The notes beneath the pieces were generated by a model. It did not search any database, was not told the DNA's origin, and was given only the letters and a program-made list of their open reading frames with translations. From Polytrichum commune (Eukaryota > Streptophyta > Polytrichopsida > Polytrichales > Polytrichaceae): a DNA stretch of 64,000 nt. Below are positions 658-30,243 of this stretch, piece after piece. The DNA lies in NCBI GenBank assembly GCA_950295325.1, contig OX485803.1, positions 77,763,554 through 77,827,553 on the forward strand. Reading direction: 5' to 3'. A program made the position numbers and the translations under genes. Position 1 is the stretch's first letter, and each line of letters begins with the position of its first letter.

Positions 658-662
658 GGGTG

Positions 663-2412: not shown

Positions 2413-2417
2413 GGGTG

Positions 2418-3346: not shown

Positions 3347-4729
3347 TCGTTGAGATGGATGCCGATCGTGAGTCTGTGGATGTTGGGGGTCGTATTGGCG
3401 CTGGGTCATCCTTTAGTGTTGAGGAGCATAGGGAGCAAGGGTCTCCCTTGTCATGTGATCAAAATACTGGGCTTACACCAAGTAGTAGCGAGGCGCCGAC
3501 ACCCGGGATGCCACTCTGCAGCTCACCTGCAGATTCGGATTTGGGTGTTCGTGCAATGGAATATCGAATTCGCCACAATTTAAAGAAAGATAGCTTTTCA
3601 GTTGTTGAGGCATGAGAATCCTACCGGTGGAAAAGTCCTCCATGAGAATCCCCCTGTGCAGGTTGATTCACATGCCATTGGTTCGCCCAACCCTCCGCAG
3701 CGACGTTACAAAGCTCATGTCGGCATTTCAATTTGGATACCGAGCTGGGTCAGCCACTTTTTATGTATCTACTACAAATGAGTCCGGAGATAATCGATTC
3801 ATTTCAGCGAAAGATAAGCGTGAATGGGGAGACCTATGGAATGCAGTTTGAGTCTCTTTTGCGCAAAGATAAGGATTTGATGAGCCTCAGTGGATGTATG
3901 TTCTTTGTGTATGATGGTAACCATCGTTTGTTAGCCTGGAAGGAGTGTATTGAAACAGATCACAAGGACGATGCACTCTGGTACGAGAAGCATGGTTGCC
4001 CAGAATGTGTCATCTTGGACACAACGGGTGGGCGTGGGGACGTCCTTAACACAATGCACGACATCAATAAGTAAGTATGATAATTTTTCATATCGTTGTT
4101 TCCTTCATTTTTTGATTTGCATTTAATGACATTTGTCTCTACCGCAACAGGGCTAACCAGACCGCGCACGTTAAAACTAGCCTCGTACACACTCTACACC
4201 GCATTCAAAAATACGGTTCGTATGATCTTAGCTACTACCAGCCCTTATTGACCGAGGAGCAATTCCAAGCGTGCAAGAGCAGAGGCCCCAAGAGCCCTTG
4301 GTACCCGCTGACCTAAGATCTTATGGTGTCCTTCATTTTCAATGTAAGTCACTCCAAATTTCTCAACCCTCTACTTCGCATTCATTACTCTTAGTCGTGA
4401 TCTAACAATTTAGAATATATGTTCAGCAAGAGATAGCCGATGCGGTAGATGAGGCTACCCAAATATACAAGGAGGAAGTGCCTCCAGAGGAGCAGTCGGG
4501 GAACGGGTTGGGTGAAGTATTGGACGCTGTGATAAAGAAGACGACTAAGGAACTTGGACACAAGTTCAACAAGCAACAATCAATCGCAAACCCGGCCCTT
4601 GGAAAAGACATCCTGGAGGAGGTTATTTCCTTCTCACCAACCTTCGGAATTATACCTTCGGTATTGCTCGCATTCATTTCAGCATGTGAACCCTTTGAGT
4701 GGTCCACCACTCTGCGGGATCACTTTTAG
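3347..4729 (+). pseudogene. ParB-like module exons of the split gene
   Basis: The first exon seems to begin after the acceptor 'gtgcgcag' at 3346; an ATG at 3355 opens a Ser/Pro-rich leader of about 86 codons. Its frame closes at 3613-3615, while a neighbouring frame stays open to about 3740 and the first frame becomes meaningful again (GQPLFMYLL) by 3733, so a frameshift or missed intron lies between. From 3733 to 4070 the peptide carries FFVYDGNHRLLAW and, 40 residues on, HDINK. The intron 4071-4150 (GTAAGT...CAACAG) splits a Lys codon, and 4151-4343 continues the domain, then an in-frame TAA at 4312-4314 breaks it. Intron 4344-4426 joins 4427-4729 in phase; that exon is acidic and helical and ends in a stop at 4727-4729, or splices out earlier at GTATTG (4661). 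DGxHR is the signature of ParB-like folds; function here is unknown. Confidence 0.6.
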
Positions 4730-7589
4730 TTAGAATGTTAGCATTAAAAGTTAGAATTGATAGGAAATTTAGGAAAAATTAGTTCATTTAGCATTTAGCC
4801 TAGAAGAAGGAAGGTCAAAATGAAACTAAGTAGTGCTAGAAGATAGCAAAGTAGAAAAAATGTGCTAGCTAGTAAAAACAACTAGCTAAGCAAATATTAG
4901 TAGATGCTAGCTATTAAGCAAATGTTAGTAAATGCTAGCTAAGCAAGTGTTAGTTTATTAGTTAGTGTGAGGCACACAAGACTATTGGAGGTGTTTTACG
5001 TAAGAAGATAAAATCGGCGTGAAGAATTTTGAAGACAAAAAAGAAAGAGAGCAAGGGGGATACTTGCCCACTTGCCCCCTTGCCAACTCGATGGCGGAAA
5101 AATTAGAAAGATTTCTAAAGGTTTTTTGTCGGAGCCACCTCGGCGAGAGGGTGGCAACCTCAACCGGGAAAACCCCCGAGCCAAAATTTCGGGAAAGGGT
5201 TTGAAAAATGGATCCGGTGGAGGAGGGGTCCAGCCCTTTTGTGAGAGGGTTTAAAAACCCCTCCTTCCACCTTGTAGCTCTCTCTCTTTCTCTAGTTTTT
5301 GGGCGAAGCCCTGCTTCAATGTAGTTAGGAAAAAATCCTTTAGCATGTATTCTCAATGGTCTAAAAGAAAGGCTTGAGAACCTCCTCTACTCTCTCTCTC
5401 CTAGTTAGGTTGTGTGTTTATTAACACACCAACAAAATTATTCCTTCTTTTGTAGAGGTAGGTTGGATGGTAGAGTTTTGAGTAGAGGCATTATAGACCT
5501 CATCTGCCAATGCCCTGAAGGCTTAGTTCAAAAGCTAGAACAAGATACTTATCATTTTTCTCTTAGAGAGATTTCATATAGCTATCCATAGCCGTTTCCC
5601 ATTTGTGATTTGGTTGAGATGACAATTAGTTATGGATTTTCAAAGATGGAGTAGAAAAAACTGGGTGGTCTTGTGGGTAGCGGCTGCTGGATCAGACCTG
5701 CGAGCCCAATAGGAATTTTAATTCCAAGAAATTATATTTTTCCCAAGTAGAACTTTTGTGTAGCTTTCCAAAATGGCTTAGAACATTTGATTTGAGCATG
5801 ATTTGAATTAGATATGAATTGTGCAAGATGGGACACATAGTTTGAGAACTTTGGTTGACTGCTGCATTACAGAGGACCTGCTGGGTTCACTTCGGCTTAC
5901 CTTTCTAATCACATATTTTTATCAAATACATCTTTTTAATATCTCTCCAGGGTCATATAGAACGTTTGATTTGACTAAGATTTGAATTAGATATGAATTG
6001 TTGAAGGCGAGATACATAGTTTAAGCCTTCTTGATTGACTGCTGTGTTACAAGGAGTCCGCTGAATTTCTATTAGCTTAACCTGCTGATGTCATAATTTT
6101 TCTAGTTAGAGCTTGTTCATAGCTTTCCAATGGTATAAGGAAAGCCTAGATCCAAGTAGTAAGGAATGTGCTATGAATTTTTGAAGTTAGAAGGTAGATA
6201 GGTGGGTTGGAAGGGTCGGTTGAATCGACCTCACACTTCCAACCCTCATAACTTTTGCATTTCTTATCCGATTAGAGTGATTTTTAGATCATTGGAAAGA
6301 TAATTTGGTGCACTAAGTATAAAAATTATGCTTAGGATTAAATTACAGGGCAGAATAACACTTTATATTTTAATTGTTAACTAAGGTACGCTTACTACCA
6401 AACTAGTTACAAAGAAGGAGGCAAGGTCGACGCTCGGAAAGTGGAGCAAGGAAGGAGGTAGCGGCTCGGCCTACATCAAGCCCAAATCAACCGAGGAAAA
6501 TTGAGGTAAATTAACTAACCTTAAGCCTTCCATTTAGGATTGGAGGGAGCACGGCTAAGGTACGCATCTCTAAACCCACTCACCTATCTCGTAAGGTCAA
6601 GTGGCTTGACCACTTGACCGCCAAGGGAGTACCCAATTCCATTGTTTTCGGGGCCCTTGGTATGTTTTGTGGTAGTAGCTTCATTTATTAGCAAGTTTCG
6701 TGTGTGGTAAGTCGGATTAATCACCGACACGACCACTCTGAATGTTGTTGGTGGAAAGGTGGGGTTAATGACCCGCGAATCCACTATTATGTTGTTGGTC
6801 CCATAGATTGGGAGTAATGGCCCCAATTTATGAAGATTGCGCAACAGGTTGAACCTACAGGTCGCCCGTCACCCTGGTCCCATTGAGTTGCATTTCGTGG
6901 TCTATCCAGTGTAAACACATTTAACAATCAAAACATACAAAATAAATCGTAAACCCTTGTTGGCAAGAGACCCGAGGTAAGGGGTGATGCCTAATATGTT
7001 AATGTAGTAAGTTAGGACGTGCAAACAAAAGTAAGTAATTAAGAAGGAATTTGTGTGAAGGGTGGGACTTAGGCCAAGTTCCCCCGCTTAGAAAACTAAA
7101 TAGAACTAAATAAAGAAATAGGAAGAATTGAATGGTCCATCAAATTGTCGTTATTCCGTTCGTTGAGTTAGGGTGGTATGAGTCACACCCGGTTGGGTGT
7201 ATCAGAACCATCCCAATTCACAAATTAGGATTGCCTTGGTTTCAAGGCTGGTGCGTCTGCGCGTAGAATAGGTTGTAGGTTAAGGTTAGAACTAGATATG
7301 AAATTGGTTAGTGGAGTTTAAAGCCACACTAGTAAAAAACTAAGGCCTAACCTCCGGAGGTACTACGACGCATATTTAATCTCCCTTAAAAATCTAACTA
7401 CTCACGTTATACACCTATCATCCGGGTTCGGCTTGGGCGCCTGCAAATGCAGGCCACCTTCACCGAAGGGCTTGTGTGATATTTTTAGGCTCCCTCGAAA
7501 GGGGGTGGCCCAAAAGTACCACACAGCACTTTCTCGTAAATTCATGATTAAATTTACTCCGCCTTCTTTTTTGATGACATTTGTTTCAG
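4730..7589. other. Long intron or inserted repeat DNA without a recognisable gene
   Basis: About 2.9 kb between the last ParB-module exon and the exon at 7590. It is AT-rich with short repeats of 'gctagc/ttagt' at 4860-4960 and pyrimidine-rich TCTCTC stretches at 5278-5292 and 5388-5400. Composition resembles LTR DNA, but I found no TG...CA pair with a matching target duplication, so no element is called. The short open frames here have no recognisable domain. Confidence 0.5.
5770..6125. repeat. Two imperfect direct repeats of about 178 bp
   Basis: The phrase 'gatttgaattagatatgaattg' begins near 5801 and again near 5978, followed in both by 'acatagttt', 'gactgctg' and a 'cctgctg/ccgctga' segment. 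A weaker third copy may start near 6110 ('agctttccaatgg'). No coding potential seen. Confidence 0.7.
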
Positions 7590-8122
7590 GTTACTAGGCA
7601 TTATAGCGCCCACCATTCTAAGAAGATTGAGATGACATTGGAGAAATTGCAACTCATTGCCACAGCTGCTGTGGAGCCAGAGTATAAAGTCCGTTGGCTA
7701 AAGTGGTGGAACAGTGAAAATTTCAATCGTGAAGCTATCCGGTTCCCCAAAAGTCCTGCAAGCGAGGACACCTTGAAACCTTGGCTCAATAAAACAACGT
7801 TCTGGGCAGGGGTACGTCTATCCTCCTTATCCTTACTTACCAATCAACTCTTCATTTTATGCCGATTCTTATCTTGGCCTTGAAATTATCCACAGCTTGA
7901 GGATGCAGTGGTCAAGGAGTTACCTGATATACTTCACGCATTGGGTGGGCTTGACGGAGATGTCGAAGTTGATTCATTGCCGGACTACTTGGAGAAGTGG
8001 CGGATCTGCCTTTGGGATAAGGCGTTCATAGGTCACTTTTCAGGTTCAGATATCTACGGAAAGGGGACGTGGTGGAAGGATGTCAAAGGCTCTGACAACA
8101 TTGTCAAGCGCTTAATTTTTCG
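7590..8122 (+). pseudogene. Middle exons of the split gene (linker between ParB-like and methyltransferase-like modules)
   Basis: Exon 7590-7811 follows the acceptor TTGTTTCAG and ends at GGG|GTACGT; it is exactly 74 codons. Intron 7812-7895 ends TTATCCACAG. Exon 7896-8122 continues in frame and stops two bases into an Arg codon at CG|GTACGT. That codon is completed by the first base of the exon at 9921. The peptide is rich in Trp and charged residues (for example KVRWLKWW and YGKGTWWKD) and matches no domain I recognise. There are no stops in these two exons, unlike the 5' module. The intron after 8122 is filled by tandem-repeat array 2. Confidence 0.65.
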
Positions 8123-8215
8123 GTACGTTAGTTGAGACATCATTTGTTCTCCTCATTTATTTAAAACCATTTAATCTATCCCTTTTAGAGCTCGTCGTGA
8201 GGTAGTTGGCGACTA

Positions 8216-9835
8216 AGATGTAGCTTACTAAAGGTACTAAGTATACAAATTTCTGTCCATATGGTTGAGGGGTGCATGTTTGTGAGGTCTCAGGTTGGGC
8301 CTAAAGGGCATTGTCGGATCTGATAAACCATCCGAGACCAACTTCAGAACCTATAAAAACTTGGAAATTTGGCTATATGAATTAGTGGGTTGACTTAAAT
8401 GTAGCCTTAGTGTGGCCATTAATGAGGTCTGCAATATTGATTTTGTGGCTAACTGAGTAAGGGGCAGCCTCAAATGTGGCAGTAGTTAGTTCTTGGGAAT
8501 CCAAAATTCTTGCCATATTGTTCAGGGGTGCATGTTTGTGAGGTCTCCGGATGGGCCTAAAGGGCATTGTCGGATCCGACAATGCATCCAAGACCAAGTT
8601 GAGAACCTCTGAAAAACTTAGAAAGTTGGCTATATGAACTAGTTGGTTGACTGAAATGTGGCATTCAATTATGCTCAAAATATTGATTTTGTGGCTAACT
8701 GAGTAAGGAACTGAGTTTTATGTGACCTTGGTTATGTCTTTCATGAGGCTCAAAGTTTTAATTTTGTGGCTAACTGAGTAAGGGGCAGCCTGAAATGTGG
8801 CAGTAGTTAGTTCTTGGGAATCCAAATTTCTGGCCATATTGTTGAGGGGTGCATGTTTGTGAGTTCTCAGGTTGGGCCTAAAGGGCATTGTCGGATCCGA
8901 CAAAGCATCCAAGACCAAGTTGAGAACCTCTAAAAACTTAGAAAGTTGGCTTAGTGTGGCCTTGAATGAGGTCTGAAAAATTGATTTTGTGGCTAACTCC
9001 ATAAGTGAGTTGACTTATATGTGGGCTAAGTTAGGTCCTAAGTATTCAAATTTCTGGCCACATGGTTGAGGGGTGCATGTTTGTGAGGTCTCAGGTAAGG
9101 CCTAAAGGGCATTGTCGGATCCGATAAAGCATCCGAGACCAACTTCAGAACCTTTAGAAACTTAGAAATTTGGCTATATTAACTAGTGGGTTGATTGAAA
9201 TGTGGCCTTATTTGGTTCTTGAATTAGGCTCACAATGTTGATTTTGTGGCTATCTGTGTTAGGGGTTGTCTGAAATGTGGCCTTTGTTAGGCCTTCAATT
9301 AGGCTCCAAGTGTTGATTCTGTGGCTAACTAAGTAAGGTGCTGACTGTAATATTGCTTTAGTTAGTTCTTGAATTAGGCTCACAGTGTTGATTTTGTGGC
9401 TATCTGAATAAGGGGCTGACTGAAATGTGGCCTTAGTTAGGTCTTCTATGAGGCTCAAAGTTTTGATTTTGTGTCTACCTGAGTAAGGGGCAGACTGAAA
9501 TGAGGCATTAGTTAGTTCTTAGGGATTCAAATTTCTGGCCATATGGTTGAGGGGTGCATGTTTGTGAGGTCTCAGGTTGGGCCTACAGGGCATTGTCGGA
9601 TCCGATAAACCATCTGAGACCAACTTCAGAACCTATAAAAACTTAGAAATTTGGCTATATTAACTAGTGTGTTGACTGAAATGTGGCCTTCATGTGGCCT
9701 TTAGGTAGGCTCAAATTGTTGATTTTGTGGCTTACTGAGTAACGGGGCAGAATGAAATGTGGCTTACTTAAGTACTAAGTATTTAAATTTCTGGCCATAT
9801 CATTTAGAGGTCCTAGTTTGCGAGGTCTGAGTGAG
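8216..9835. repeat. Tandem repeat array 2 (inside an intron of the split gene)
   Basis: Same family as array 1. Blocks with GTCGGATC(C/T)GA occur near 8311, 8571, 8889, 9114 and 9595. Between 9180 and 9500 a shorter submotif of about 75 bp ('ttgattttgtggctaactgagtaagg') is repeated. The array sits between donor 8123 and acceptor 9920 of the split gene. Confidence 0.92.
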
Positions 9836-9840
9836 GTGTG

Positions 9841-9880
9841 AGGAAGTCTCAATCGCTTAATCTTTCGATACGTAAGTTCT
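9841..9880 (+). repeat. Partial duplicate of the upstream exon 3' end
   Basis: The bases 'cgcttaatctttcgatacgtaagtt' at 9851-9876 closely match the exon end and donor at 8109-8132 ('cgcttaatttttcggtacgttagtt'). The array-2 repeat is thus flanked on both sides by copies of the same exon/intron boundary, with a strong alternative donor GTAAGT at 9870. Confidence 0.65.
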
Positions 9881-9920
9881 TTTATAAGTTGTTGATTGGC
9901 CTCACTCCTTGGTTGTGAAG

Positions 9921-9981
9921 GTACATCAAGCATGAGCTTTTCAAGAAGAAGGCTTTGAAGAAGCTCCCTCCATTTCTAGAC
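9921..9981 (+). pseudogene. Exon of the split gene, left of the Ty3 insertion
   Basis: Follows acceptor TTGTGAAG. One base completes the Arg codon of exon 7896-8122, then 20 codons, Lys-rich (FKKKALKKL), run to GAC at 9981. The last five bases, TAGAC, are the target-site duplication of the Ty3 element. The reading frame continues without loss at 25752, on the far side of the element. Confidence 0.8.
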
Positions 9982-12069
9982 TGTTGAAGACATTAACAAC
10001 AAGCAAGTATAGGAGCATTGAATCTAGATCTACAACGGAAACAAACAAAGGAAAGAGGATGAAGAACACCGGAATCCCAAAGAACGGTCGAAAAATGCAC
10101 TTCGGAGGTGAAGCAACCTCGTCCACGGTAATAGGGTCACTGCCACGGTTTTACACACATTACGCGCGGTTATAGGTCTCATTACCCACGGCAATGGGTA
10201 CCCAGTGGCTTAACAAAGGAAAACTTAGAATTTAGGAAGGAGGACTATTATATAAGGATGAAAGGACTTATGTAAGAGGTATATAGGATTATTAGGAAGT
10301 ATGTATTACATTCTATTAGCATAATATATGTAGGATTTGGAGGATAAAGGATTATCCGAAGAAGTATGGTTAGGGAATATATTAGTATGTAAGATTTTGA
10401 AGAGACATGATTATGGAAAATATAGCATTTTGAGAAAGCATGATTATGATAAGAAGTTTAGATTCTTATGATACAAAAACGTTATGAAGACATTAAAGAA
10501 TATATGGGACTAGGATGCAATTTACAAGGAAGATCTAAATACCAATCAACGGTATTGAATCAATCAATCACAAGGAATTGATTGGATTCTCAAAGAGGAA
10601 TTATAAAACAACGAAGATATAGTGGAATCTTAGATATAGGAACATTAAGGTGATGAAACGGTTATAACCGTTTAGGATAAATAGCATCTACCTATATTGA
10701 GGATATTTAAGTATCTAGGAAAGTGGGAGTTAACAACCACTCTTAATGTAGATTTTGGATTAGGAAGAGAAGACTATATAAGGGAAGCAAATTAGGAGAC
10801 TATTACCTCATTTTATACACAACGAAGTTATCTTAAATTTGAGTGTCAAGAATCACTTGAAGCTTTTGTAACTCTCCTCTCGAGGAACCTTTGCAATACA
10901 CTTATCTTTTCTATAAATGCGTGTGACCTTTCTACCTCTCTCTCAAATTATCTTACAAAGTTTGTCAAGCGGTACTTGGAACTTGAGTGATTGAGCAACC
11001 GAGAGTAGAGTAGATTGAGTAGACTCTTTTGAGAAAGAACTCAAAAGATAGTGCGAGGGTGAGAACAAAGCGCTCAAGACAAATTGGAGAATCAATGGGA
11101 CTTTGAGAGAGATTGAATTGAGAAAGCGATTGTTAAACTTGAGTGAAAGAAACAAGATTATCTCTCAAAGCGGAACTTATCATTGATCTCCTCAAAAGGG
11201 AATTAAAATTATTCATGTGATTAATTGATTGAAGAAATATATGCATGTTATGATTTGAGCAAAATTACTTAACTCCTTCAAAAGAGGAGGAGCTTATTAT
11301 TATAAACTACATAATCGACTTATACATATTATACTACATATTGATTGATTGAACTTATGATTGACAAGAATGATGAAGACATTAATTCACGTCAAAGTTT
11401 GAATACATATGAAGGAAGTAATATTGATATAATATAATCCACTTACTACAATTGTTATTGAACCTCTTTCTTTCACAATATTTTGTGAGTTGTTGGATGT
11501 CATTAACAATTGAAGAAGAGTTCTTCTCTCTTGAGCAAAACTCAAGAGAGTTACAATTATACTTGTTATTAAAGCACTTTGAAGATCAACGTGACATTGC
11601 AAAACAATTAATGAAGTATGCATAAACTTATAACTACTATAAGTATAATAGTCAAGTTACAATATTATAAGTAGTAACACTTGAGCTTAAAAAGGAAGAT
11701 TCAAAGATATTATATGTTCTTCATTATAAAATTATTATCATTGATATGATTGATGTTATGAACTACAAAACTTAAGGATTCAAACAACATATTGAAACTA
11801 TATGTTATTGTTACACCTCTTGAAGCTTTCTTAAATCTAAAGGTTCTTATTGTCAATGATGCCTTACATTGAAAATAAGAACTAAGATAATGAGATTGTG
11901 TTCACTCCGATAATATATTCATATCATAAGGAGAAGAGAGGGATTATTAATTTGAGACCGAACATATTAATGAGGCACGGCAGTTCTCAAGCGAATATAA
12001 ATTTACGTGATGTCTCACCGTGAGTCTTCTTGAGCTAAATTGCAAGGGAACGACCCACGGCGTCCATCA
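9982..12069 (+). repeat. 5' LTR of the Ty3 element
   Basis: 2,088 bp, begins TGTTGAAGAC and ends GGCGTCCATCA. Identical in length to the 3' LTR, and the short open frames at 10943-11155 and 11387-11623 recur unchanged in the 3' LTR. Confidence 0.96.
10774..10782 (+). promoter_or_regulatory. Probable LTR TATA box
   Basis: TATATAAGG in an otherwise purine-rich stretch about 790 bp into the 5' LTR; transcription of the element would start some 30 bp downstream. The same motif occurs at the equivalent place in the 3' LTR (near 24451-24459). Confidence 0.55.
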
Positions 12070-12072
12070 TTT

Positions 12073-12090
12073 TGGCGACCATGCTGGGGA
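12073..12090 (+). other. Primer binding site of the Ty3 element
   Basis: TGGCGACCATGCTGGGGA begins three bases after the 5' LTR end. It has the TGG start and length of a tRNA 3'-end complement; I cannot name the tRNA with confidence. Confidence 0.65.
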
Positions 12091-12306
12091 TTCTTGCCAT
12101 TAATGTGTTTCGGTAATTTAAATGTGAAGGGGTGATTTAATGTGTCTCGGTGTTTTAAGTGTGAAAAGGACGAAAGCGGAGGTTCTTGGCGAATGCGTTA
12201 ACTAAGCACGTGGAGAATTACGCCAAGAAGAGCGGATAACCGTAACGTCATATCTACCAAATGGAAACTTAACACGATTCGGAGATAATGCGCCTTACTA
12301 GTAAGA

Positions 12307-12937
12307 ATGTCAAATGAGAAGAGACATACGGAAGACGACCGAGAAATACGTGATACGTTGAATGAATTAAACTTCATCACTTTTTGCGAGGCGATACTCA
12401 AGGAGACCGAAACTCAAGAGAAATTCTATCAAGTGGAGATTGAGGAATCCCTACTTTACAAATTGTGGCACACAACGGAAGAAATTTCAAATGAGCAACA
12501 AATCCAATTGGAACATTAAACCAAAAGAAACTAGAGCAAACAACAAAGAGGAACTAGTATCAAATTGGCCATGGGAATATCCAAACTACATCAAAGAATC
12601 TAACAAAGAAGGAGAATGGACTAGCACCAACCGATTTCTCGGATTAATTGTATGCATGAACCGAGTCTACATTAATCAAGCGTGGAGAAATTTTGAAGAA
12701 AGACGGATTAGTTTCACATACCGATCGGAGTTTGAGAAAAGAATCAAAGACTTACCCGAAGAATTACAAGCCATCATATTTTCAAAAGTGTGGAACAAAG
12801 GCAAGGATACATTGTGGGAATGCATGCCGGGAACGACAAAACAAAGTGGGTACCATTATAATCTAGAAGGGTTCTTTTACGACCTATACTACACACGAGT
12901 AATGGTACCGGCTACAATCAATGATTCCTTGGTTTGA
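12307..12937 (+). pseudogene. ORF1 copy A of the Ty3 element (before gag)
   Basis: Two overlapping frames: ATG at 12307 to 12519, then a second frame 12440-12937 (165 codons). The second encodes a motif chain WPWEYP, FTYRSEFE(K/R)RI, LPEELQA, IFSKVWN and GYHY that is repeated in the next ORF. Tat/Ogre elements have an uncharacterised ORF1 between the 5' LTR and gag, and this is in that position. The frame change suggests decay or a programmed frameshift; function unknown. Confidence 0.6.
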
Positions 12938-13538
12938 AAATATCCATTGCCGCGATAACTTACGAGAAAGATTAGAAGAAGGATCCGAGGAGAAGCATTT
13001 AATCGGACCACTTGAAGCCTCACATGTCGAAAGATCGATTTTGAGAAAAATTGAGAGATCGAACGTGAAAGGAGTATACGTGATTGAAGACACTATAGAA
13101 GATATTGACACCAAAGGAACCGAGAGTCATTGGCCTTGGGAATACCCAAAGTTTAGTGAAGACGAAAAGGTACTAACTCAATATGAAGGAGTAAAGAGGT
13201 TCCATGACTTGATGTGGAACATGCACAAAGTTTACAAAACAAAAGCAACCAAGAACTTTATCAAGAAACGAATTGGATTTACTTATCGATCGGAGTTTGA
13301 GAGGAGAATCTACGAACTACCGGAAGAACTACAAGCAAAGATATTCTCAAAGGTGTGGAATCACGGGAGAATTGGAATCGGAAAGCGGGCGAAAGGCGCC
13401 ACAAGTCATAGAGGGTACCACTACCCGCAAGAGGGACTATTATACAACTTGTACTTCGAAAGGGTGATGATAAAACTTTACAACGGACTAGAGAGGTTGG
13501 AAAATAGTGAGCGAGGGTTGATCAATTTTAACGAGTGA
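12921..13538 (+). CDS. ORF1 copy B of the Ty3 element (duplicate of copy A)
   Basis: A 205-codon frame beginning inside the end of copy A. After a charged N-terminal segment of about 65 residues it repeats the copy A signature in the same order: WPWEYP, FTYRSEFERRI, LPEELQAKIFSKVWN and GYHYPQEG. It has no zinc finger, signal peptide or membrane segment. Because the two copies share the domain but sit in different frames, the pair most likely arose by tandem duplication within the leader. Role unknown; ORF1 products of related elements are also uncharacterised. Confidence 0.6.
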   Translation: MIPWFENIHCRDNLRERLEEGSEEKHLIGPLEASHVERSILRKIERSNVKGVYVIEDTIEDIDTKGTESHWPWEYPKFSEDEKVLTQYEGVKRFHDLMWNMHKVYKTKATKNFIKKRIGFTYRSEFERRIYELPEELQAKIFSKVWNHGRIGIGKRAKGATSHRGYHYPQEGLLYNLYFERVMIKLYNGLERLENSERGLINFNE

Positions 13539-13577
13539 AAATTTTAAGAATAGATTGGGGAAAAAGAGGAACATTTT

Positions 13578-13855
13578 ATTGAGTCAAGAAACGATAGCGT
13601 GTCCTAAGAGTTGTACTAGCGAAAGGATGAGATAGATACACATAATTGAAGCCGGGAGGGCCGATTAGGGGTGATCTTGGGTCATGCTAAGTAGCGTTAA
13701 CGTACGACAAAGAGGAAGAGAAAATTAAATTGAGTGTTTCCTAAGAACCGTACTAGCGAAAGGATGAATATAGGTGCACATAGTTGAAGCCGGGAGGGCC
13801 AACTAGGGTGATCTAAGATCATGCTAAGTAGTGTTAATGTACGACGAAGAGGAAG
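13578..13855 (+). repeat. Tandem duplication of the gag leader
   Basis: Two copies of about 130-140 bp, 13578-13719 and 13730-13855. Both contain 'actagcgaaaggatga', 'gttgaagccgggaggg' (with variants) and 'catgctaagtag', and both end 'aagaggaag'. The second copy contains the gag start. Confidence 0.8.
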
Positions 13856-18969: not shown

Positions 18970-20211
18970 ATTTCTCCTAGTGGAGAATCAAAAACATGCA
19001 TAGAGGGACAAATTATTGAGGAAATCATTTCAGAAGCACATGAACAAGAAGGGCAACATCAAACGTTTGAAGACACATGGTTCACCATACTAAGCGGACC
19101 ATATTGGTGGCCAACAAGAAAAAGAGACGTAGCGAGTTATTGCGGAGATTGTCCGGTTTGTTTACAACAAAATGAAGGAATAGTACATGAACAAGAAAAC
19201 GACACTTTGATATTAGATTCAAACACGGACGAAGAATCAACCACGGAAGAAAATCAAGCAACAAATTGGAGAACACCTTACTTGGAGTACTTGAGAAATG
19301 GACAAGTACGTGGAGAAAATATTTCAAATGAAAAACAACTTCAATGGGCAAACAAATGCAAGCGGTTCGTTCTGGATAGAGGAACTTTGATAAGATTACT
19401 ACCCAACGGAGATACACGAATATGCGTTACACGAAGTCGAGGAGGAAAGCTAATAGCGGCAACACACAACGGAAAGGGAAAGCATTTAACCTTACCAATG
19501 ACTAAACAATTAATATTCTTTAGTCCTTATTGGCGGCCAACAATTGACGAGGACATCAAATATCATGCGGAATACGAATGTGAAGAATGCATGTTACAAC
19601 TCGATGAGAAGCAAGAAGAGATGAATTTAAAAGGTAAACAAACGACTACATCAAAGGAGATCTCACCATCGGATTGGAGAAAACCTTACGTCGAATACTT
19701 ATCATTCGGAGAAGTAACTAGCAACGATTTGACCGGAGAAGAGAAGGAACGGATTGCGAATAGAAGCCAATTCTTCGCCATCATAGATGGCAAACTAATG
19801 AGACAATTTGTTGCCAACGAGATACCAAAGGAATGCATATCGGAGAATCGGATACAAAGACTCTTAAAGGAACTTCATGAAAAACATCAAACATGTGAAG
19901 AAATGATAAGGGAAGCGTCACAAGGACCATATTGGTGGCCTACGATGACTCGCGACATTCAAAGTTTTATCAAACAAAACAAACAAGGAAATGGTACTTC
20001 AACAATGCGACAAAAGAATGGTTCAACCAAAATAGATTGGAGAGTACCAATAATGGAATGTTTGAACAATGGAAAAACCGTGAATCAAAATCTATTGGAA
20101 GAGGAAAATGGAACATACTTTACGGAGAAAGGAGAATTACGTATATTCTACAAGGGGCAAAGAGTGGTAAGAAGATATTTACCGTACAAACAAAAAATCA
20201 AAATTTTTTAG
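18970..20211 (+). pseudogene. Integrase region with repeated HHCC zinc-binding modules, no catalytic core
   Basis: Same frame as Gag-Pol, open from 18970 to TAG at 20209-20211. Three modules follow one another, each starting with a WR(K/T)P(Y/F)xEYL segment and ending near a YWWPT or YWRPT signature. Module 1 (from 18838, across the TGA) has HEQEGQH...CGDC. Module 2 (about 19264-19600) has HNGKGKH...CEEC. Module 3 (about 19671-19980) keeps HEKH and YWWPT but lacks the Cys pair. A fourth partial module begins with DWRVPIMECL at 20035. In a normal Ty3 integrase one HHCC module precedes a DDE core. Here I see no core before the GPY/F-like domain that follows. Integration in cis is therefore unlikely. 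Confidence 0.75.
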
Positions 20212-20952
20212 CAACAAAGATGGATGGGACCCTACACCATTACAAAGGTTCATGATGACAACACCGTTCAAATCGAAAACAAATATCAAAAGGACCTTGG
20301 ACGATGGAGATCTAGTAATTTTTTACTATATGATTGGGTTAACCCCAATCAAGTCATTACACTTGACCAAAAGGAAATGGAAGTATCAACACCACTACAT
20401 TACGAAGAGATGCACCACAAAATGTTGGAATGCTACTCTATACAACCAAGGAGAAAAGGAACTTTAAATGAGGAAGTTACCGACGACGTAAAAGTTACAA
20501 AAATTGGGAAAATATGTACTCAATTTTTAACAGAAAGTGATCATTTCAAAAAGAGTGCACCACACCTATATTTATCGAAGAATTCATACACGAGCACACC
20601 ATCTGATTATGATACAACAATCAAGGACAACACATATGACAAGTACAACGTACTTTCAAAGCCAAAGACGGCAACCATGTTAACCACTAAGTGGTTACGA
20701 CACATGTGGGGCATTTGGAACTTAATTTGCATGAGATGTACAATTCAAAATTGGAACTTACATCCAGGCAATTCATCCATCCAATCCGCAATTATTAATT
20801 TTTCAAGGGTACATTCAAGAATTACGAATGAGAATATTAAAGGGAATTATTTCACAAATCAAACACCAAGAGAAAAGCTTCAACCACAATTGGAAGAACT
20901 TCAAAAGATCAAACCAAGAATTTCAAAGTTATTATCAAAATTCCATGCTTAA
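20212..20952 (+). pseudogene. Integrase C-terminal (GPY/F-like) domain and tail
   Basis: Continues the Gag-Pol frame after the TAG at 20209. WMGPYTITKVHDDNTVQ at about 20221-20271 is a clear GPY/F module, the chromatin/DNA-binding end of Ty3 integrases. It is followed by a charged tail of about 200 residues with no recognised domain, ending at TAA 20950-20952. The stop before it has the context TAG CAA. Whether this part is ever translated is unknown. Confidence 0.7.
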
Positions 20953-23642
20953 GTCCAATTTGATTTTTATTGGAGAGGTCCGCACAAGGCAGACCTCAAC
21001 AAAGGCAAGAACACTACACAAGGCAACGTTCTCTTTAATGTTTACCTGTACAAAGGATACCACAAGTCAGAATGAATCACCACGAGAAGAAATTACAATA
21101 GAAGGGCACAATGATTGGGGAGAACCGGCAGTTTGTTACAAATGAACCGGTTGAAGTTCACGACTACATGAAAATTACTCACCGTTTTAGAGGAATTTAT
21201 AGAATATACCCCAAATTAATAAAGGAAAACTGGAGGATGTCAACATGTAACCAGTTGGACTTGCAAGCACTAGGATCTCAACCGGCTATGCCCAAACATC
21301 TTCCCAATCAAGGGAAGGGCATAAAGGAAATACCTTTTATCATCCCATAAGTAAGAGGATGAAATATCTTGTCAAATATTATGGGGTCAAGAAGCTTACC
21401 TGGACCAACCAGCTGGAACCGCCAGCAAATCTCAAGAAGAGTAACCGAACCAACCAACTACATCATTACTAGGACTGAGCTAAGCAAGCCAGAAACAGAA
21501 TCACATACGCTATTTAAGGGGGAACTAAACAGTTTTAGTCCTCTTTTCCACTTAATCAAAGTGAAGGTCAAGAAAGGTCTGCCTTGTTGAAAGAACCCTG
21601 TGTTATAGTCGGAGAATGATAGAAGCCTTCTTCAGCTTAGCAACTGCGCCAAATTACCAATAGCTCTCAGATCACTTAGTTTAGTCTGTGGCACTTTCCA
21701 AGCACATAACAGATTTGCTTTCATAAACTTCGAATATTTGGGTGATCAGCTGATAGTTAAGGATGATTCTAAAATAGAGGCTGGCATTCTAATGCCTTCA
21801 GAATTAATAGAGATAGTAGCCCTCAAAAAGAGGAAAATAGAATCAGAAACGGCGAGTCATCGAAGGAAGGGCCATCTGCTTTGATCGCCATAGCCGAACC
21901 AGTAGATACAGTCGGCACAAGCACAAACATCGTTCGCATAAATGGGACTTGTGGCAATGGAACTTACAAGAATATAAAGCTACTACACTCAAGAAAATCA
22001 GAAATTTGAGACCTGGATCGCCCAAACAACTCGCAAAAGGGAGAATCAGACTCAAGGCGAGACTCTCACACAACCGCATTGTCAAGCCAAATTCTTACAA
22101 AAGACAAAGGAAGACTTGCAACTTCAGGTTCAACAATCGACCAAACAATTGAAGATTGCATCGGAGAATTACCAGAAGCTCACTGAAACAACTCAACTTA
22201 GAGAAATGAGCTCCCAGAAGGAGCAAAACCTGCAACAACTTTTGAAATTGAAAATTCAAAATACACAGATTGGAGCAGGAGCTCAAAGAAATGAGCATTC
22301 AAAAAGAGCAGCTTAGCAACAATTAAGGTCTTTACAGAACCAGCAAGTGAGCGAATTAGCAGAGAAACCACCCAACAAAAAGAGAATAATTGCGCATCAA
22401 TTGGAACACACAAAAGGCAACTCGTCCAATGAAAGAAAAGAAAAGAAAAGAAAAGGAAAAACCACAGATCATAGTTCCTCCAGGGGAAGCAACAATGGAA
22501 GAGAATATGTTTATAAGCACACATGGAATTGGTACATCAGATCTGAACACAGCAGCATTACAAGACAATCATTTGAAATTTAGTCAACCAAGCCAACTTT
22601 TGAAAGAATGGATTATGGGTGTTCAACTAACAGCACCGAATGAGAGCAGGCATTCGTCATAAATTTAAAAGGGACTCCCAGTACACAAACTGAAATTTCA
22701 GTTTTGAAAATACAAATATAGACTTTGAGTGTCAAATATGCCGCAGAAGAAACACAAGTCACCTTCGACAAATCTTAGGTACTCCAGCGAGAGATCCACC
22801 CTCGAAAGCCCAACTCACCCAAAAGTCGAAGCTTTCGACATGTCGCTTCGAAGAGATCCCGATTGCAGACATTCCACAATTCGGAACAAGAGCAGAAGCA
22901 AAGAGGAACTTGTTACAGATTGTGCAATCATCCAGCTGGAGCCTAAATCCAGCACCTTAGACAACTCGGCCAAACTATCGCAGCTCTTAGACTTTAAATC
23001 TGAACTTCAAACCCTACAAGCTAACTACGCCATCGCCGATGAGAAGCATTCCCGGGCCAGCACATCCGCTCAAGCTTAGTTACATGACCTGCAACAAAGG
23101 AACAGATCACAGCCAAGGCATTAGCACTTGCGGCCGAAAAGCAAAGGAGATCTAAGACTACAACTCGAACATATGCAGACTACTTACGCCATATCAGAGG
23201 AGAAAAATCGCCAGACCACCGAAGATGCTCAACTCCAAAGACAAGAGCTTCTACACAAATACACCCTCCTGCAGACTCAGTATGCTGCGACAGAAGAACA
23301 AGCTCGCCACACAGCCGAAACTACCAAGGCCCAGATTGAAGACTATTCTTTCAGATATCAAGGACATGAGCATCCAGAAGCAACCGCTAGTCGAAAAGCT
23401 AGCAATCCTAGAGGAACAACACAAGCAAGAGATGGTTGAGAGAAACCGAATTGAGAAGGAACTTCAGACAAAAATTTAAGGAGATGACAGAATATTGCAC
23501 ACATCAGAAAGAGTCACTCAAAGGTACTCTTCAACAACTTCAACACATTAGGGCAGCAATGCTCACACTCAAGGACCAAACTTACAATCATATCCAGGGA
23601 CTATGAAAATCCCTAAAAGATCTTGAGGGCAAGATCTAACCC
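20953..23642 (+). other. Decayed 3' internal region of the Ty3 element with coiled-coil repeats
   Basis: Between the integrase tail and the polypurine tract there are only short frames. From about 22100 they are rich in Gln, Glu and Leu. From 22980 to 23345 a peptide motif of the form LQxxYAxxEEKxR (LQANYAIADEK, MQTTYAISEEK, LQTQYAATEEQ) recurs about every 30-50 residues across frames and stops, so it is the ruin of a coiled-coil ORF. An A/G-rich stretch lies at 22431-22463. Confidence 0.6.
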
Positions 23643-23658
23643 TGGGGAGGGGGTAAAA
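23643..23658 (+). other. Polypurine tract of the Ty3 element
   Basis: TGGGGAGGGGGTAAAA directly precedes the 3' LTR at 23659, the expected site for plus-strand priming. Confidence 0.85.
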
Positions 23659-25746
23659 TGTTGAAGACATTAACAACAAGCAAGTATAGGAGCATTGAAT
23701 CTAGATCTACAACGGAAACAAACAAAGGAAAGAGGATGAAGAACACCGGAATCCCAAAGAACGGTCGAAAAATGCACTTCGGAGGTGAAGCAACCTCGTC
23801 CACGGTAATAGGGTCACTGCCACGGTTTTACACACATTACGCGCGGTTATAGGTCTCATTACCCACGGCAATGGGTACCCAGTGGCTTAACAAAGGAAAA
23901 CTTAGAATTTAGGAAGGAGGACTATTATATAAGGATGAAAGGACTTATGTAAGAGGTATATAGGATTATTAGGAAGTATGTATTACATTCTATTAGCATA
24001 ATATATGTAGGATTTGGAGGATAAAGGATTATCCGAAGAAGTATGGTTAGGGAATATATTAGTATGTAAGATTTTGAAGAGACATGATTATGGAAAATAT
24101 AGCATTTTGAGAAAGCATGATTATGATAAGAAGTTTAGATTCTTATGATACAAAAACGTTATGAAGACATTAAAGAATATATGGGACTAGGATGCAATTT
24201 ACAAGGAAGATCTAAATACCAATCAACGGTATTGAATCAATCAATCACAAGGAATTGATTGGATTCTCAAAGAGGAATTATAAAACAACGAAGATATAGT
24301 GGAATCTTAGATATAGGAACATTAAGGTGATGAAACGGTTATAACCGTTTAGGATAAATAGCATCTACCTATATTGAGGATATTTAAGTATCTAGGAAAG
24401 TGGGAGTTAACAACCACTCTTAATGTAGATTTTGGATTAGGAAGAGAAGACTATATAAGGGAAGCAAATTAGGAGACTATTACCTCATTTTATACACAAC
24501 GAAGTTATCTTAAATTTGAGTGTCAAGAATCACTTGAAGCTTTTGTAACTCTCCTCTCGAGGAACCTTTGCAATACACTTATCTTTTCTATAAATGCGTG
24601 TGACCTTTCTACCTCTCTCTCAAATTATCTTACAAAGTTTGTCAAGCGGTACTTGGAACTTGAGTGATTGAGCAACCGAGAGTAGAGTAGATTGAGTAGA
24701 CTCTTTTGAGAAAGAACTCAAAAGATAGTGCGAGGGTGAGAACAAAGCGCTCAAGACAAATTGGAGAATCAATGGGACTTTGAGAGAGATTGAATTGAGA
24801 AAGCGATTGTTAAACTTGAGTGAAAGAAACAAGATTATCTCTCAAAGCGGAACTTATCATTGATCTCCTCAAAAGGGAATTAAAATTATTCATGTGATTA
24901 ATTGATTGAAGAAATATATGCATGTTATGATTTGAGCAAAATTACTTAACTCCTTCAAAAGAGGAGGAGCTTATTATTATAAACTACATAATCGACTTAT
25001 ACATATTATACTACATATTGATTGATTGAACTTATGATTGACAAGAATGATGAAGACATTAATTCACGTCAAAGTTTGAATACATATGAAGGAAGTAATA
25101 TTGATATAATATAATCCACTTACTACAATTGTTATTGAACCTCTTTCTTTCACAATATTTTGTGAGTTGTTGGATGTCATTAACAATTGAAGAAGAGTTC
25201 TTCTCTCTTGAGCAAAACTCAAGAGAGTTACAATTATACTTGTTATTAAAGCACTTTGAAGATCAACGTGACATTGCAAAACAATTAATGAAGTATGCAT
25301 AAACTTATAACTACTATAAGTATAATAGTCAAGTTACAATATTATAAGTAGTAACACTTGAGCTTAAAAAGGAAGATTCAAAGATATTATATGTTCTTCA
25401 TTATAAAATTATTATCATTGATATGATTGATGTTATGAACTACAAAACTTAAGGATTCAAACAACATATTGAAACTATATGTTATTGTTACACCTCTTGA
25501 AGCTTTCTTAAATCTAAAGGTTCTTATTGTCAATGATGCCTTACATTGAAAATAAGAACTAAGATAATGAGATTGTGTTCACTCCGATAATATATTCATA
25601 TCATAAGGAGAAGAGAGGGATTATTAATTTGAGACCGAACATATTAATGAGGCACGGCAGTTCTCAAGCGAATATAAATTTACGTGATGTCTCACCGTGA
25701 GTCTTCTTGAGCTAAATTGCAAGGGAACGACCCACGGCGTCCATCA
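23659..25746 (+). repeat. 3' LTR of the Ty3 element
   Basis: 2,088 bp, TGTTGAAGAC...GGCGTCCATCA, followed by the target duplication TAGAC (25747-25751). I found no mismatch with the 5' LTR where compared. Confidence 0.96.
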
Positions 25747-25751
25747 TAGAC

Positions 25752-26943
25752 GCATGGTCAGATTCCTCTTCACCCACCTTCGTTTTTTCCCCGGCTCAAA
25801 AACGCAACTTTTCCCTCCCGCATCTCCGCGAGTGTTGCTGGTACTTGGAATGTAAGAAGACGTGGCAACTGGATGAGGAGGCGGACTTGAAGATTCGCCT
25901 CTCCGGTGGAGAGCCGAACCTGCCTCCTGCTCAAAGCGATGAGGTTGTTCTTCTAGAGAGTGAGCTTCAGGAGGTGGATGAGGTTGTTGCGACTCTCGAT
26001 GAGCCCAACATTCAGAAGTCCAAGAGGAGGAAGCGTGCGACTCAAGACGAGTCATCACTCAAGAAGCGCGCGAGGAAGCTCAAGCCTGTGGAGGATGATC
26101 CCCCTCCCCCTGCTTCACCTGAGGCGGCAGTTGCATCCACTGCAACTCTAAGTGAATTACCTATTCTATCCAGGCCGCCTCCTCCGCCCATTCTTTCATC
26201 TGTTAGGCGTCCTCCCGTTGTTTCAGAATTCATGTTGAATTCCTCCATTGTTCATCAACGTCGTCATTTTCATGAGATTTCAAACTTCATTCTTTCTCTT
26301 CCACCCTCCCATCCCAAGAGAGCTCTAGGTGTTGCGAGGTCAGATGTGGGCATGGCTGATCTTGTCATTGCCGACATCCCGGAGAACCTGCCTGTACCTA
26401 ATGTCTCCCATCCTTCCTATAGTGTACCTTCGTGGAATGCATTGGATAGCGATTTTCTAGGTGAGCTCTTTGATTTTGCGGATGAGATCCTGCATGACGA
26501 TGGAGCTCTCCTCCTCTTTCATCCTGATGACAATGGTGACTTTAGGGAAAGCATTGAAGACCACTTTGCTGCTTTTGGGTTCACGATCTTCAAGGAGTGG
26601 CTGGGAGTCAACCGTCTTCGCCTATCTTCAGCTAAGCATAAGGACAAGACCACCAACTTCTTCCAGGTTGTACTACTTGTTCGTGCCACCAAAACAATTG
26701 GATCCGACCTTGATAAGCGGCCGCGGCACTCGTCATTTCGGGTTCGCGATGCCAATGAGCTCAAGGCTCTTGGCATTGAGCTCGACATGGATGATGCGAT
26801 CATGAATTATACCGCAACTCCTCTCATGGACGGCTCCAAAGCTTGGCGTGGTCCCCATGAGAAAGATATTGCTTTCATGTCCTCCTTGATAATGGCCACT
26901 ACGGACATTGGACAGGTTGTGGTGGACGTTAATGCGGGCGTTG
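25752..26943 (+). pseudogene. Methyltransferase-like exon of the split gene, right of the Ty3 insertion
   Basis: Continues the frame of 9921-9981 after one TSD copy. 397 codons plus one base, no stop, ending G|GTATGT. The N-terminal third is low complexity: a basic KSKRRKR / KKRARKLK stretch (possible nuclear signal) and a Pro-rich segment PPPPASP. From about 26340 it becomes a Rossmann-like methyltransferase half: DLVIADIPEN (motif IV position), then an acidic helix and DDGALLLFHPDD, then EWLGVNRL. After a spacer, PHEKDIAFMSSLI and VVVDVNAG lead into motif I. This order (IV before I) is that of beta-class N4-cytosine/N6-adenine DNA methylases. The usual PP(Y/W) after the Asp is replaced by IPE, so catalysis is uncertain. 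Confidence 0.72.
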
Positions 26944-26959
26944 GTATGTCCTAATTCCT

Positions 26960-29060
26960 AGTTGAGAACCTCTAAAAACTTAGAAATTTGGCTATATGAA
27001 CTAGTTGGTTGACTTAAATCTGGCCTTAGATGTTAGAGGTCTGAAATGTTGAATTTGTGGCTCACTGAGTAAGGGGCTGACTCTGATGTGGCTTAGTAAG
27101 GTCTTTAATGAGGCTCAAAGTGTTGATTTTGTGGCTAACTGAGTAAGGGGGCTGTCTGAAATGAGGCATTAGGTAGTTCTTAGGGGTTCAAATTTCTGGC
27201 CATATGGTTGAGGGGTGCATGTTTGTGAGGTCTCAGGTTAGGCGTAAATGGCATTGTCGGATCCGACAATGCATCCAAGTCCAAGTTGAGAACCTCTAAA
27301 AACTTAGAAATTTGGCTATATGAACTAGTGGGTTGACTGAAATGTGGCCTTAGTTAGTTCTTGAATGATGTCTGAGATGTTGATTTTATGGCTAACTGAG
27401 TAAGGGGGCTGACTTAAATATGGCTTACTTAGCTCTTCAATAAGGCTCAAAGTGTTGATTTTGTGGCTAACTGAGTAAGGGGGCTGACTTAAATGTGGCT
27501 TAGTTAGGTCTTCAATTAGGCTCAAAGTGTTGTTTTTCTGGCTAACTGAGTAAGGGGCAGACTGAAATGTGGCCTTAGTTAGTTCTTAGGGATTCTTATT
27601 TCTGGCCATATGGTTTAGGAGTGCATGTTTTTGAGGTCTCAGGTTAGGCCTAAAGGGCATAGTCGGATCCGATAAAGCATCCGAGACCAACTTCAGAACC
27701 TCTAACAACTTAGAAATTTGTCTATATGAACTAGTGGGTTCACTGATATGTGGCCTTCGTTAGGTCTTTAATGAGGCTCAAAGTTTTGATTTTTTGTCTA
27801 ACTGAGTAAGGGGCTGACTGAAATGTGGCCTTAGTTAGTTCTTTGGGATCCTAATTTCTGGCCATATGGTTTAGGAGTGCATGTTTGTGAGGTCTCAGGT
27901 TAGGCCTTAAGGGCATAGTCGGATCCGATAAAGCATCCCAGACCAAGTTCAGAACCTCTAACAACTTAGAAATTTGTCTATATGAACTAGTGGATTGACT
28001 GAAATGTGGCCTTAATGTGGCCTTCAATTAGGCTCAAAATGTTGATTGTGTGGCTAACTGTGTAAGGGGCTGACTGGAATGTGGCTTAGTTAGGTCTTTA
28101 ATGAGGCTCAAATTGTTGATTTTGTGGCTAACTGAGTAAGGGGCTGACTGAAATGTGGCCTTACTTGGTTCTTGAATTAGGCTCACAGTGTTGATTTTGT
28201 GGCTATCTGTGTTAGGGGCTGACTGAAATGTGGCCTTAGTTAGGCCTTCAATTAGGCTCAAAATGTTGATTTTGTGGCTAACAGAGTAAGGGGCTGACTG
28301 GAATATGGCTTAGTTAGGTCTTTAATGAGGCTCAAATTGTTGATTTTGTGGCTAACTGAGTAAGGGGCTGACTGAAATGTGGCCTTAGTTGGTTCTTGAA
28401 TTAGGCTCACAGTGTTGATTTTGTGGCTATCTGTGTTAGGGGCTGACTGAAATGTAGCCTTAGTTAGGCCTTCAATTAGGCTCGCAATGTTGATTTTGTG
28501 GCTATTTGTGTAAGGGGCTGACTTTGATGTGGCTTAGTTAGGTCTTTAATGAGGCTCAAAGTGTTGATTTTGTGGCTAACTGAGTAAGGGGGCTGACTTA
28601 AATGTGGCTTAGTTAGGTCTTGAATTAGGCTCAAAGTGTTCATTTTGTGGCTAACTAAATAAGGGGGCAGACTGAAATGTGACCTTAGTTAGGCCTTGAA
28701 TGAGGTCTGATGGGTTGATTTTGTGGGTAACTGAGGAAGGGGGCTGACTTAAATGTAGCCTTAGTTAGGTCTTGAATTAGGCTCAAAGTGTTGATTTTGT
28801 GGCTAACTGAGTAAGGGGGATGTCTGAAATGTGGCCTTAGTAAGGCCTTGAATGAGGTCTGATGGGTTGATTTTGTGGGTAACTGAGTAAGGGGGCTGAC
28901 TTACATGTGGCTTAGTTAGGTCTTGAATTAGGCTCAAAGTGTTGATTTTGTGGCTAACTGAGTAATGGGGCTGTCTGAAATGTGGCCTTAGTTAGGCCTT
29001 GAATGAGGTCTGAAATGTTGATTTTGTGGGTAATTGAGTAAGGGGGTTGACTGAAATGTG
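26960..29060. repeat. Tandem repeat array 3 (inside the motif I intron of the split gene)
   Basis: Fills the intron 26944-29076. The left part has 224-bp-type units with the GTCGGATCCGA core near 27258, 27663 and 27918. From about 28020 to 29050 it consists of more than a dozen copies of the 74-78-bp subunit ('ttgattttgtggctaactgagtaagggg'). Both unit types occur in arrays 1 and 2. Confidence 0.93.
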
Positions 29061-29076
29061 GCTTACTCCGCAACAG

Positions 29077-29661
29077 GGACTTGTATCCATGCATGCAGGC
29101 AGCTTGGGCGCCATGTCGTTGCTCTTGAGGAGGACGAGGACACCTTCAACCGTGTCCTTAAGCCACTCAAGAGTGTTCAGCCTGCAGTGAAGGCTTCATC
29201 CATTGTTGTTGCTCCCACGCAGGCTACACAAGGCACGCAGAAGAGGCAGCCGGCCTTGAAGCGATCGAGGCCAGAGCCCTCACAGTAAGTGAGTATGATG
29301 ACCTTCTTCGCTTATTTTCCTTGTCCATTCGGCTTTTACACTTTCCATCCTCTTTCTTACAATTTTCGTGTTTTTTTTTAGACTTGGCGTTGGTGCGGAT
29401 GTGTTGGGTACTCCCACCATGGGTTTCACATTGCCTATCTATGCCCATGATATGGCGATGGTACTAGCGGCACAACCTTCTCCTACCGAAGCTAGTACTC
29501 CGTCTCCGGGTTATGACCCCCGTGCCTTAGACTTCTTCGACCTTTCCGCGGAGGTGGATAATGAGTGCCATAGCTTAGATTCCACTTCAGATGAGGGCGG
29601 CCATGAGGGTAGTATCTTTGGAAGTAGGGAATCTAGTAGTGACGACCTCATTGTTGAGTGA
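29077..29661 (+). pseudogene. Last exons of the split gene (methyltransferase motif I and acidic tail)
   Basis: Acceptor CCGCAACAG. The first two bases complete a Gly codon, giving DVNAGVGTCIHACRQLGRHVV across the junction, a motif I followed by an ALEED segment with the expected acidic residues at the end of the next strand. Exon 29077-29284 ends with two bases of a Gln codon at CA|GTAAGT. Intron 29285-29381 ends in a T-run plus TAG. Exon 29382-29661 completes the codon and runs 93 codons to TGA. The tail is acidic and Ser-rich. An alternative donor at 29289 would leave a TAA in frame, so the GTAAGT donor is preferred. Confidence 0.75.
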
Positions 29662-30057
29662 TTTTGGGTTTGATTGATTTGTTGGTTTGATTTATCGGTA
29701 TATGGATTTATAAAGTGTGGTGTGGATTTCAATATTCCAATTATGTCATTGAATGCATCTTTTCGTTGTTCCCGCATTGCATTCTTCATTTTTGATCACC
29801 ATCTATAATGTTCACCCTCAAATGTTCACCATCTATAAATGTTGAGCAATATACAAATCTTAACATGTCCTAACTATAATCAATTGTGAAGAGTAATTCT
29901 GAGAGAATACCATACACAAAATTGCAAACCCAATCAAAACTTTATTCAATATCAAGTTTACAAATCATGTGTGAATTATGAATGTACTTCAGTCGTTAAC
30001 ATTTATAGATTCAACTTTACAAATAAGGGAACACCATTTTGTTAACAATTAACAAAA

Positions 30058-30195: not shown

Positions 30196-30243
30196 AAAAT
30201 GATATGAGGTGCACACCTATATTACACAATGGTCTACATTGAT

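Follow-up and report, generated by a model that had tools for sequence, protein, structure and literature searches.

A broken methyltransferase-type gene in the moss Polytrichum commune as a putative transposon accessory gene with candidate palindromic target sites

The 64,000-nucleotide window analysed here (Polytrichum commune assembly GCA_950295325.1, contig OX485803.1, positions 77,763,554 to 77,827,553; G000:C1:77763554-77827553 in our numbering) comes from a genome of 408 Mb in 64 contigs, seven of them large (42-78 Mb), and carries the remains of an eight-exon gene in which a first module, marked by the motif DGNHRLLAW, precedes a methyltransferase-like module. At one place of the genome MIR166 narrowly reaches its gathering score (61 bits, with 60 required), in keeping with a land plant. 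We consider it fairly probable that this eight-exon gene represents a broken version of the accessory (second) gene found in a dispersed family of two-gene, Mutator-like DNA transposons and that the encoded protein would work in the manner of VANC. The exons were placed by means of L020, a paralogue on C7 without large insertions, to which the identities below refer:

3355..4071, plus strand: exon 1, containing DGNHRLLAW and coding for the first module, with a frame break in the window copy; tblastn with the intact L020 exon, 60%
4152..4343, plus strand: exon 2, in-frame stop in the window copy; 98% to L020 exon 2
4427..4621, plus strand: exon 3, 3' border guessed; 82%
7590..7811, plus strand: exon 4; 88%
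7896..8123, plus strand: exon 5; 96%
12000..25700 (approximate borders), plus strand: Gypsy-like long terminal repeat (LTR) retrotransposon inside the gene, frames named by eye
25743..26945, plus strand: exon 6, basic/proline-rich linker, then the methyltransferase-like domain; 88% over residues 18-413 of 413
29079..29285, plus strand: exon 7, last part of motif I and the region of motif II; 90%
29380..29658, plus strand: exon 8, acidic tail up to the stop; 94%

In the L020 paralogue the eight exons follow one another in unchanged order over about 4 kb, and each of them matches the window, at identities of 60-98%; exon 1 is the lowest because its frame is broken in the window copy. Searched with the L020 exons, the window gave no match for residues 1-17 of exon 6. 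The exon joins were read by eye from the L020 sequence, and the conceptual splice of the intact copy yields 1097 amino acids. That one gene joins both modules, as the original prediction had it, is borne out by the exon order of L020 and by divergent subfamilies, where the two modules share a strand at a distance of 2.2-2.5 kb (match rows compared by eye); even the join that had been called the weakest, from the exons before 4729 to those after 7590, holds in the paralogue. The motifs quoted at the outset were all recovered on one strand when the frames were re-read, exon 6 having ADIPEN in the place of motif IV, then PHEKD and DVNAGVG (motif I). The window copy itself is dead: exon 1 has a frame break, exon 2 a stop, and the gene is interrupted by the retrotransposon, whose gag-pol-like frame spans 13828-18969 and which is foreign to the transposon element discussed here. 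Minisatellites surround the exons, and the end of exon 8 has another, incomplete match (54%) behind the gene, at 29990-30124.

The family is dispersed, with copies on each of the seven large contigs. In the genome, 150 of 1333 candidates for the methylase module were scored and yielded 158 matches, and for the first module 150 of 873 candidates were scored, both being lower bounds. Intact relatives measure 15-16 kb and have short terminal inverted repeats (TIRs) and 10-bp target-site duplications (TSDs), the latter in the five copies of which both ends were read:

Element EA, C7:11383094-11399475, 16,382 bp: TSD AGGTCCAAGG
Element EB, C6:22994013-23010178: TSD ATGGTCACGC
Element at C6 5.33 Mb: TSD ACCTCTCAAC
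Element at C7 23.4 Mb: TSD ATCAAAATAG (shared stretch of 13 bp, 10 picked to fit the others)
Element X, C1:9648778-9663944: TSD TCTGTTACCT

Of copies Y and C4 30.5 Mb a single end each could be located. Two of the copies, 16 kb long and from separate places in the genome, are bounded by short inverted repeats and by 10-bp duplications that differ between them; their three longest aligned segments show 94.6-99.7% identity. In the five complete elements a transposase-like gene is divergent from the methylase-type gene; of 81 scored transposase rows, 34 have a divergent first-module exon within 60 kb, 9 one on the same strand and 3 a convergent one, among the matches listed. A second deep branch, with transposases 43-55% identical, has an equal layout. 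For Mutator-like elements (MULEs), target duplications of 8-11 bp are given in the available passages of PMC6446971, a range that includes the 10 bp found here together with TIRs in the five copies. From the duplications, the ends and the layout we infer that the family is Mutator-like. Sola transposons duplicate 4 bp of target, which the 10-bp duplications here do not match.

A captured gene, either host or mobile, had originally been predicted. The mobile part of this stands; the single captured gene does not, and gives way to an accessory gene that belongs to a repeat family in which a transposase is linked to it. Under a rival history, a host gene would have been acquired a single time from a phage or bacterium and then multiplied by tandem or segmental duplication. 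A phage-like methylase domain and introns would both fit, but the copies are dispersed over seven large contigs, have, where these were read, element ends, TSDs and a linked transposase, and in five cases the target duplications enclose whole copies, all of which make such a history highly improbable.

Tandem arrays lie upstream of the gene in EA, EB, X, L023, L024 and L025, with unit lengths that vary by subfamily, and in five of the six subfamilies one of four palindromes adjoins the gene:

P1: TGTCGGATCCGACA, 658 in the genome, reversed control 0
P2: GGCCTCGGATCCGAGGCC, 2171 in the genome, reversed control 0
P3: GTGGTCGGNNCCGACCAC, 56 in the genome, reversed control 0
P4: TTTGTGCGCNNGCGCACAAA, 17 in the genome, reversed control 0

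P1, P2 and P3 have CGG[AG]TCCG in common and differ in their arms, P4 being distinct. The palindrome-bearing units measure 170 bp in EA and EB, 320 in L023, 127 in L025 and 104 in X, and in all of these the palindrome beats 200 of 200 shuffles (197 of 200 for the doubled EB unit). Over 14 units of EA the palindrome is 99.5% conserved, compared with 93.4% outside it. The subfamily palindromes sit between the transposase and the accessory gene; those of the window copy occur among its exons as well. The window has 14 P1 sites with at most two mismatches, against 0.09 expected:

252..3158, upstream of the gene: P1 exact at 252, 2455, 2678, 2890 and 3145, one mismatch at 476
8312..9607, downstream of exon 5: P1 exact at 8568 and 8889, one or two mismatches at 8312, 9113 and 9594
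27255..27930, between exons 6 and 7: P1 exact at 27255, two mismatches at 27661 and 27917

What the 170-bp unit of EA has in common with the 5' repeats of the window is mainly 20-26 bp around the palindrome. For other window repeats, shuffles did equally well in 36 of 200 cases (27047-27843, unit 406), 84 (27487-28099, unit 256), 189, 143 and 13 (27996-29065, units 75, 149 and 224) and 68 (30239-30603, unit 199).

The placement of P1-P3 was assessed on the first 50 places listed for each, those of P1 and P2 all on C1, with clusters rather than single sites as the independent units. For P1, 45 of the 50 sites (5 of 6 clusters) have one of the 150 scored first-module exons no more than 12 kb away, 43 of these sites being on its upstream side; for P3 the figures are 49 of 50 (7 of 8 clusters) and 49, and a subset of 47 of the 150 exons gave identical counts for both. 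Random shifts average 0.37 (P1) and 0.47 (P3); owing to the clustering of the sites, individual shifts reach 38 and 24. Thirteen of the 17 P4 sites (5 of 8 clusters) are found 6.1-7.1 kb upstream of a methylase exon of the P4 branch. When two P2 clusters were picked by their sites alone, a P2-type first-module exon, 90 and 96% identical, lay beside both, with a transposase on the other side of one of them too; the P2 site at C1:13839477 is 1.7 kb from a methylase exon match, on its downstream side. In a cross-table of loci each subfamily occurs with its own palindrome only, P1 being common to the EA-type and the window-type.

The second module had been assigned to the beta-class methyltransferases, and profile comparisons agree. 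PF01555 (N6_N4_Mtase) matches five of five spliced members above its cut-off of 26.7 bits (28.7 bits for the first, 32.4 for the L057 exon), PHROG DNA methylases also match all five (best E 2.6e-12), the CcrM profile matches the module at E 4.3e-8, and hhalign with the methylase halves of phage ParB-methylase proteins gives a probability of 96.7 (E 3.5e-10); tblastn with an L024-type query returned 744 phage records at E up to 1. Exon 6 without exon 7, from the window and from L020, matched no Pfam family, viral contigs held no confirmed relatives of either module, and a structure prediction of window exon 6 without an alignment was uninformative (predicted local distance difference test, pLDDT, 34). 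Motif IV precedes motif I, and the G.G that binds S-adenosylmethionine (SAM) is present, the L023 copy being without its first glycine. We conclude that the second module is a homologue of the beta-class amino-methyltransferases, its active membership of the class being putative.

The catalytic motif of beta-class enzymes is (D/N/S)PP(Y/F/W). Motif IV of the family reads D[IL]P[ED] instead in 21 of the 22 places read, the acidic residue being E in all 15 of the main branch (L004-L011, L020-L025, L069), where L004-L011 are the best matches to an E-bearing query and so depend on that query, and D at 6 of 7 readable places in the second branch (L058, L075, L077-L080), with Y at the remaining one (L057). 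Left out of the count are the hits of L025, L035, L039, L068 and L069 that fall within the first-module exon (..VPVDLPIP), as well as the window, since it and L004 are one place; in L076, a seventh further copy of the L057 branch, motif IV falls outside coverage. The L057 branch was considered as a carrier of a canonical DIPY and rejected, its six other copies reading DIPD. Classical base methylation by the accessory protein thus appears doubtful, because an acidic residue replaces Y/F/W at nearly all places. An active N4-cytosine or N6-adenine DNA methyltransferase marking its own element, as the authors of the Ectocarpus study suggest for their protein in the passages available (PMC12477816), would account for the beta-class motif order, the largely kept SAM motif I and the purifying selection, but with this motif IV it is unlikely, the more so as the sole DIPY copy also has an altered GNHP in its first module. 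The ratio of nonsynonymous to synonymous substitution rates (dN/dS) between EA-type and window-type copies is 0.20-0.24 for the methylase exon and 0.07-0.13 for the first-module exon; it is 0.08-0.31 within P2, 0.48 for X versus Y (17 changes) and 0.91 for L006 versus the dead window copy (4 changes), wider comparisons being saturated. The values for EA-type versus window-type copies, well below 1, argue that the accessory protein is selected in its altered form.

The first module, in turn, had been called ParB-like, and here the profiles withheld their support: Pfam (PF02195 included), NCBIfam and PDB contained no ParB match, hhalign against phage ParB gave a probability of 0.1 by a procedure equal to that which found the methylase half, and 15 of 200 column shuffles aligned equally well. 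The best hint is phrog_1033, at E 0.17. The N-terminal domain of ParB has a GxxR motif. GNHR occurs at 33 of 35 loci (GNHP in L057, GNHC in L068), a count that is in part circular since these loci were selected by the pattern GN[HR] and its context, and the likeness is one at motif level only. A parS-like self-recognition of the transposon may be envisaged, in which a ParB-fold clamp would load on its own palindromes and spread over the copy, a dead SAM-binding methylase would report or block methylation, and gene and sites would co-evolve as an exchangeable cassette that gives each subfamily a private address; we regard this as a tentative possibility.

The reading that we favour, an accessory gene whose protein works like VANC, has as its observed base the divergent linked genes, the TIRs, the 10-bp TSDs, recent near-identical copies, purifying selection and subfamily-specific palindromes. 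The accessory protein would bind its own palindromes, probably as a dimer, and by this binding would mark only copies of its own subfamily; the mark may free these copies from host silencing or control the transposase, as VANC does for VANDAL elements. The methylase-derived domain would probably serve as a SAM-binding or DNA-contact scaffold, because the catalytic aromatic residue is acidic in nearly every copy read.

Several observations weigh against this reading. PF10551 (MULE transposase) gave 150 scored rows (271 candidates), none of which comes closer than 10 kb to the 80 transposase rows compared, of 81 in all, and a SWIM zinc finger in the transposase is suggested at E 0.12 and 0.039, below the cut-off. 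The ParB label derives from the GNHR motif, the profiles not confirming it. The 94-bp array of L024 is without a repeated palindrome (32-92 of 200 shuffles equally good), and the 224-bp unit of the window (TRF consensus, 108-662) is equalled by 63 of 200 shuffles. Only 2 of 50 listed P2 sites (1 of 5 clusters) are near a listed first-module exon, the list holding the best 150 exons by likeness to the window and stopping before many P2 types; 3 of the 8 P4 clusters are unlinked to a P4-branch methylase exon. A P1 cluster at C1 14.07 Mb, picked by its sites, has no gene or transposase in its 4-kb flanks and a P2 core in its flank (L071), and a P3 outlier at C4 33.55 Mb likewise has neither gene nor transposase in its 4-kb flanks.

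An EA-like transposase (C4:33541078-33542673) lies some 7 kb away from the P3 outlier (33.549 Mb), and the 4 kb examined there showed no P3-type gene. This would suit a rival reading in which the transposase or host factors use the palindromes for binding or regulation and the accessory protein does unrelated work. The position of the palindromes between two divergent genes suits this as well, and binding is putative for the accessory protein and the transposase alike. We nevertheless find it quite unlikely: the L024 transposase is 93% identical to that of EA (dS 0.29, 191 codons), yet its first module is just 40% identical and P1 sites are absent, whereas window-type elements, with EA-like first modules, have P1 in common with EA though the repeat units otherwise differ. 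This mismatch between a close transposase and a distant first module suggests, on pairwise identities, that accessory gene and array may pass together, as a cassette, from one transposase lineage to another.

Other features were met in the window and in the elements. An 835-bp repeat has four copies in the window (31124-31957, 37406-38239, 43717-44548 and 60472-61297) and resembles, at 88-92% identity, a segment of EA that lies on the upstream side of the gene. Also upstream of the gene, EA has a run of about 45 AAGGAG hexamers (9943-10210), and EB one of about 10 units. In element X, protein-kinase-like frames (L057 100-1264, C1:9657599-9658763; PF00069 E 1.3e-5, 25.2 bits, below the cut-off of 31.7) lie upstream of the ParB/methylase-type gene on the same strand and may be a third gene or the N-terminal part of this one.

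The proposed VANC-like accessory gene can be set beside several known systems. Sola1-1_Ec32 of Ectocarpus has an accessory gene with ParB-like and N4/N6 methyltransferase domains on the strand opposite the transposase, and green and red algal transposon cases are cited to Iyer et al. 2011 and Petroll et al. 2025 (PMC12477816, passages available). Both here and there a two-domain protein of about 1100 amino acids (1104 there, 1097 here) lies opposite the transposase in a large DNA transposon. The elements described here differ in their land plant host, their 10-bp TSDs and a putative Mutator-like rather than Sola transposase; the passages available on Sola1-1_Ec32 name neither an acidic catalytic motif nor palindromic sites, both of which are features here. 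As with VANC of the Arabidopsis VANDAL elements, the accessory protein is more divergent than the transposase and the motifs lie in element-specific tandem repeats and in introns too: the passages available on VANC describe its motifs as lying upstream of VANA, within tandem repeats that vary, as well as inside introns, the transposase being the more conserved (PMC5735166). VANC, however, has DUF1985/DUF287, for which the exons scanned here gave no match, and its motif YAGTATTAC is, unlike the sites here, not palindromic (PMC5735166).

Phage ParB_N + N6_N4_Mtase fusions (L001, the Desulfofustis phage L053 and three more) have the same module order and a homologous methylase half, in about 410-460 amino acids versus about 1100 here. 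L001 (1468-2796), a phage-type fusion on the small, probably bacterial contig C12, keeps DPPY and a recognisable ParB_N, unlike the moss gene; a search of prokaryote genomes found no relatives of it. Fusions with N6_N4 methylases are commoner in phages than in bacteria, according to the available part of a survey of the ParB fold (PMC12704722), and other eukaryotic captures of such methylases include the bdelloid N4CMT and a Marchantia 4mC enzyme (PMC8885841, passages available).

Among the papers listed from the open-licence PMC literature we found no ParB-methylase transposon of a land plant, no palindromic sites for such proteins, and no paper joining Mutator-like, ParB, methyltransferase and moss; two that join ParB, bryophytes and transposable elements were unrelated. 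The two-domain transposon protein itself has already been published for algae; what is new here are the candidate palindromic target sites beside the gene in most subfamilies. With a candidate target read directly from the DNA, the question of self-recognition or marking becomes testable, and the family raises the question of why evolution retained a methylase fold whose catalytic motif carries an acidic residue. If the VANC-like reading is true, these elements would be an independent parallel to VANC anti-silencing, from prokaryotic parts, and possibly a plant version of a self/non-self tag.

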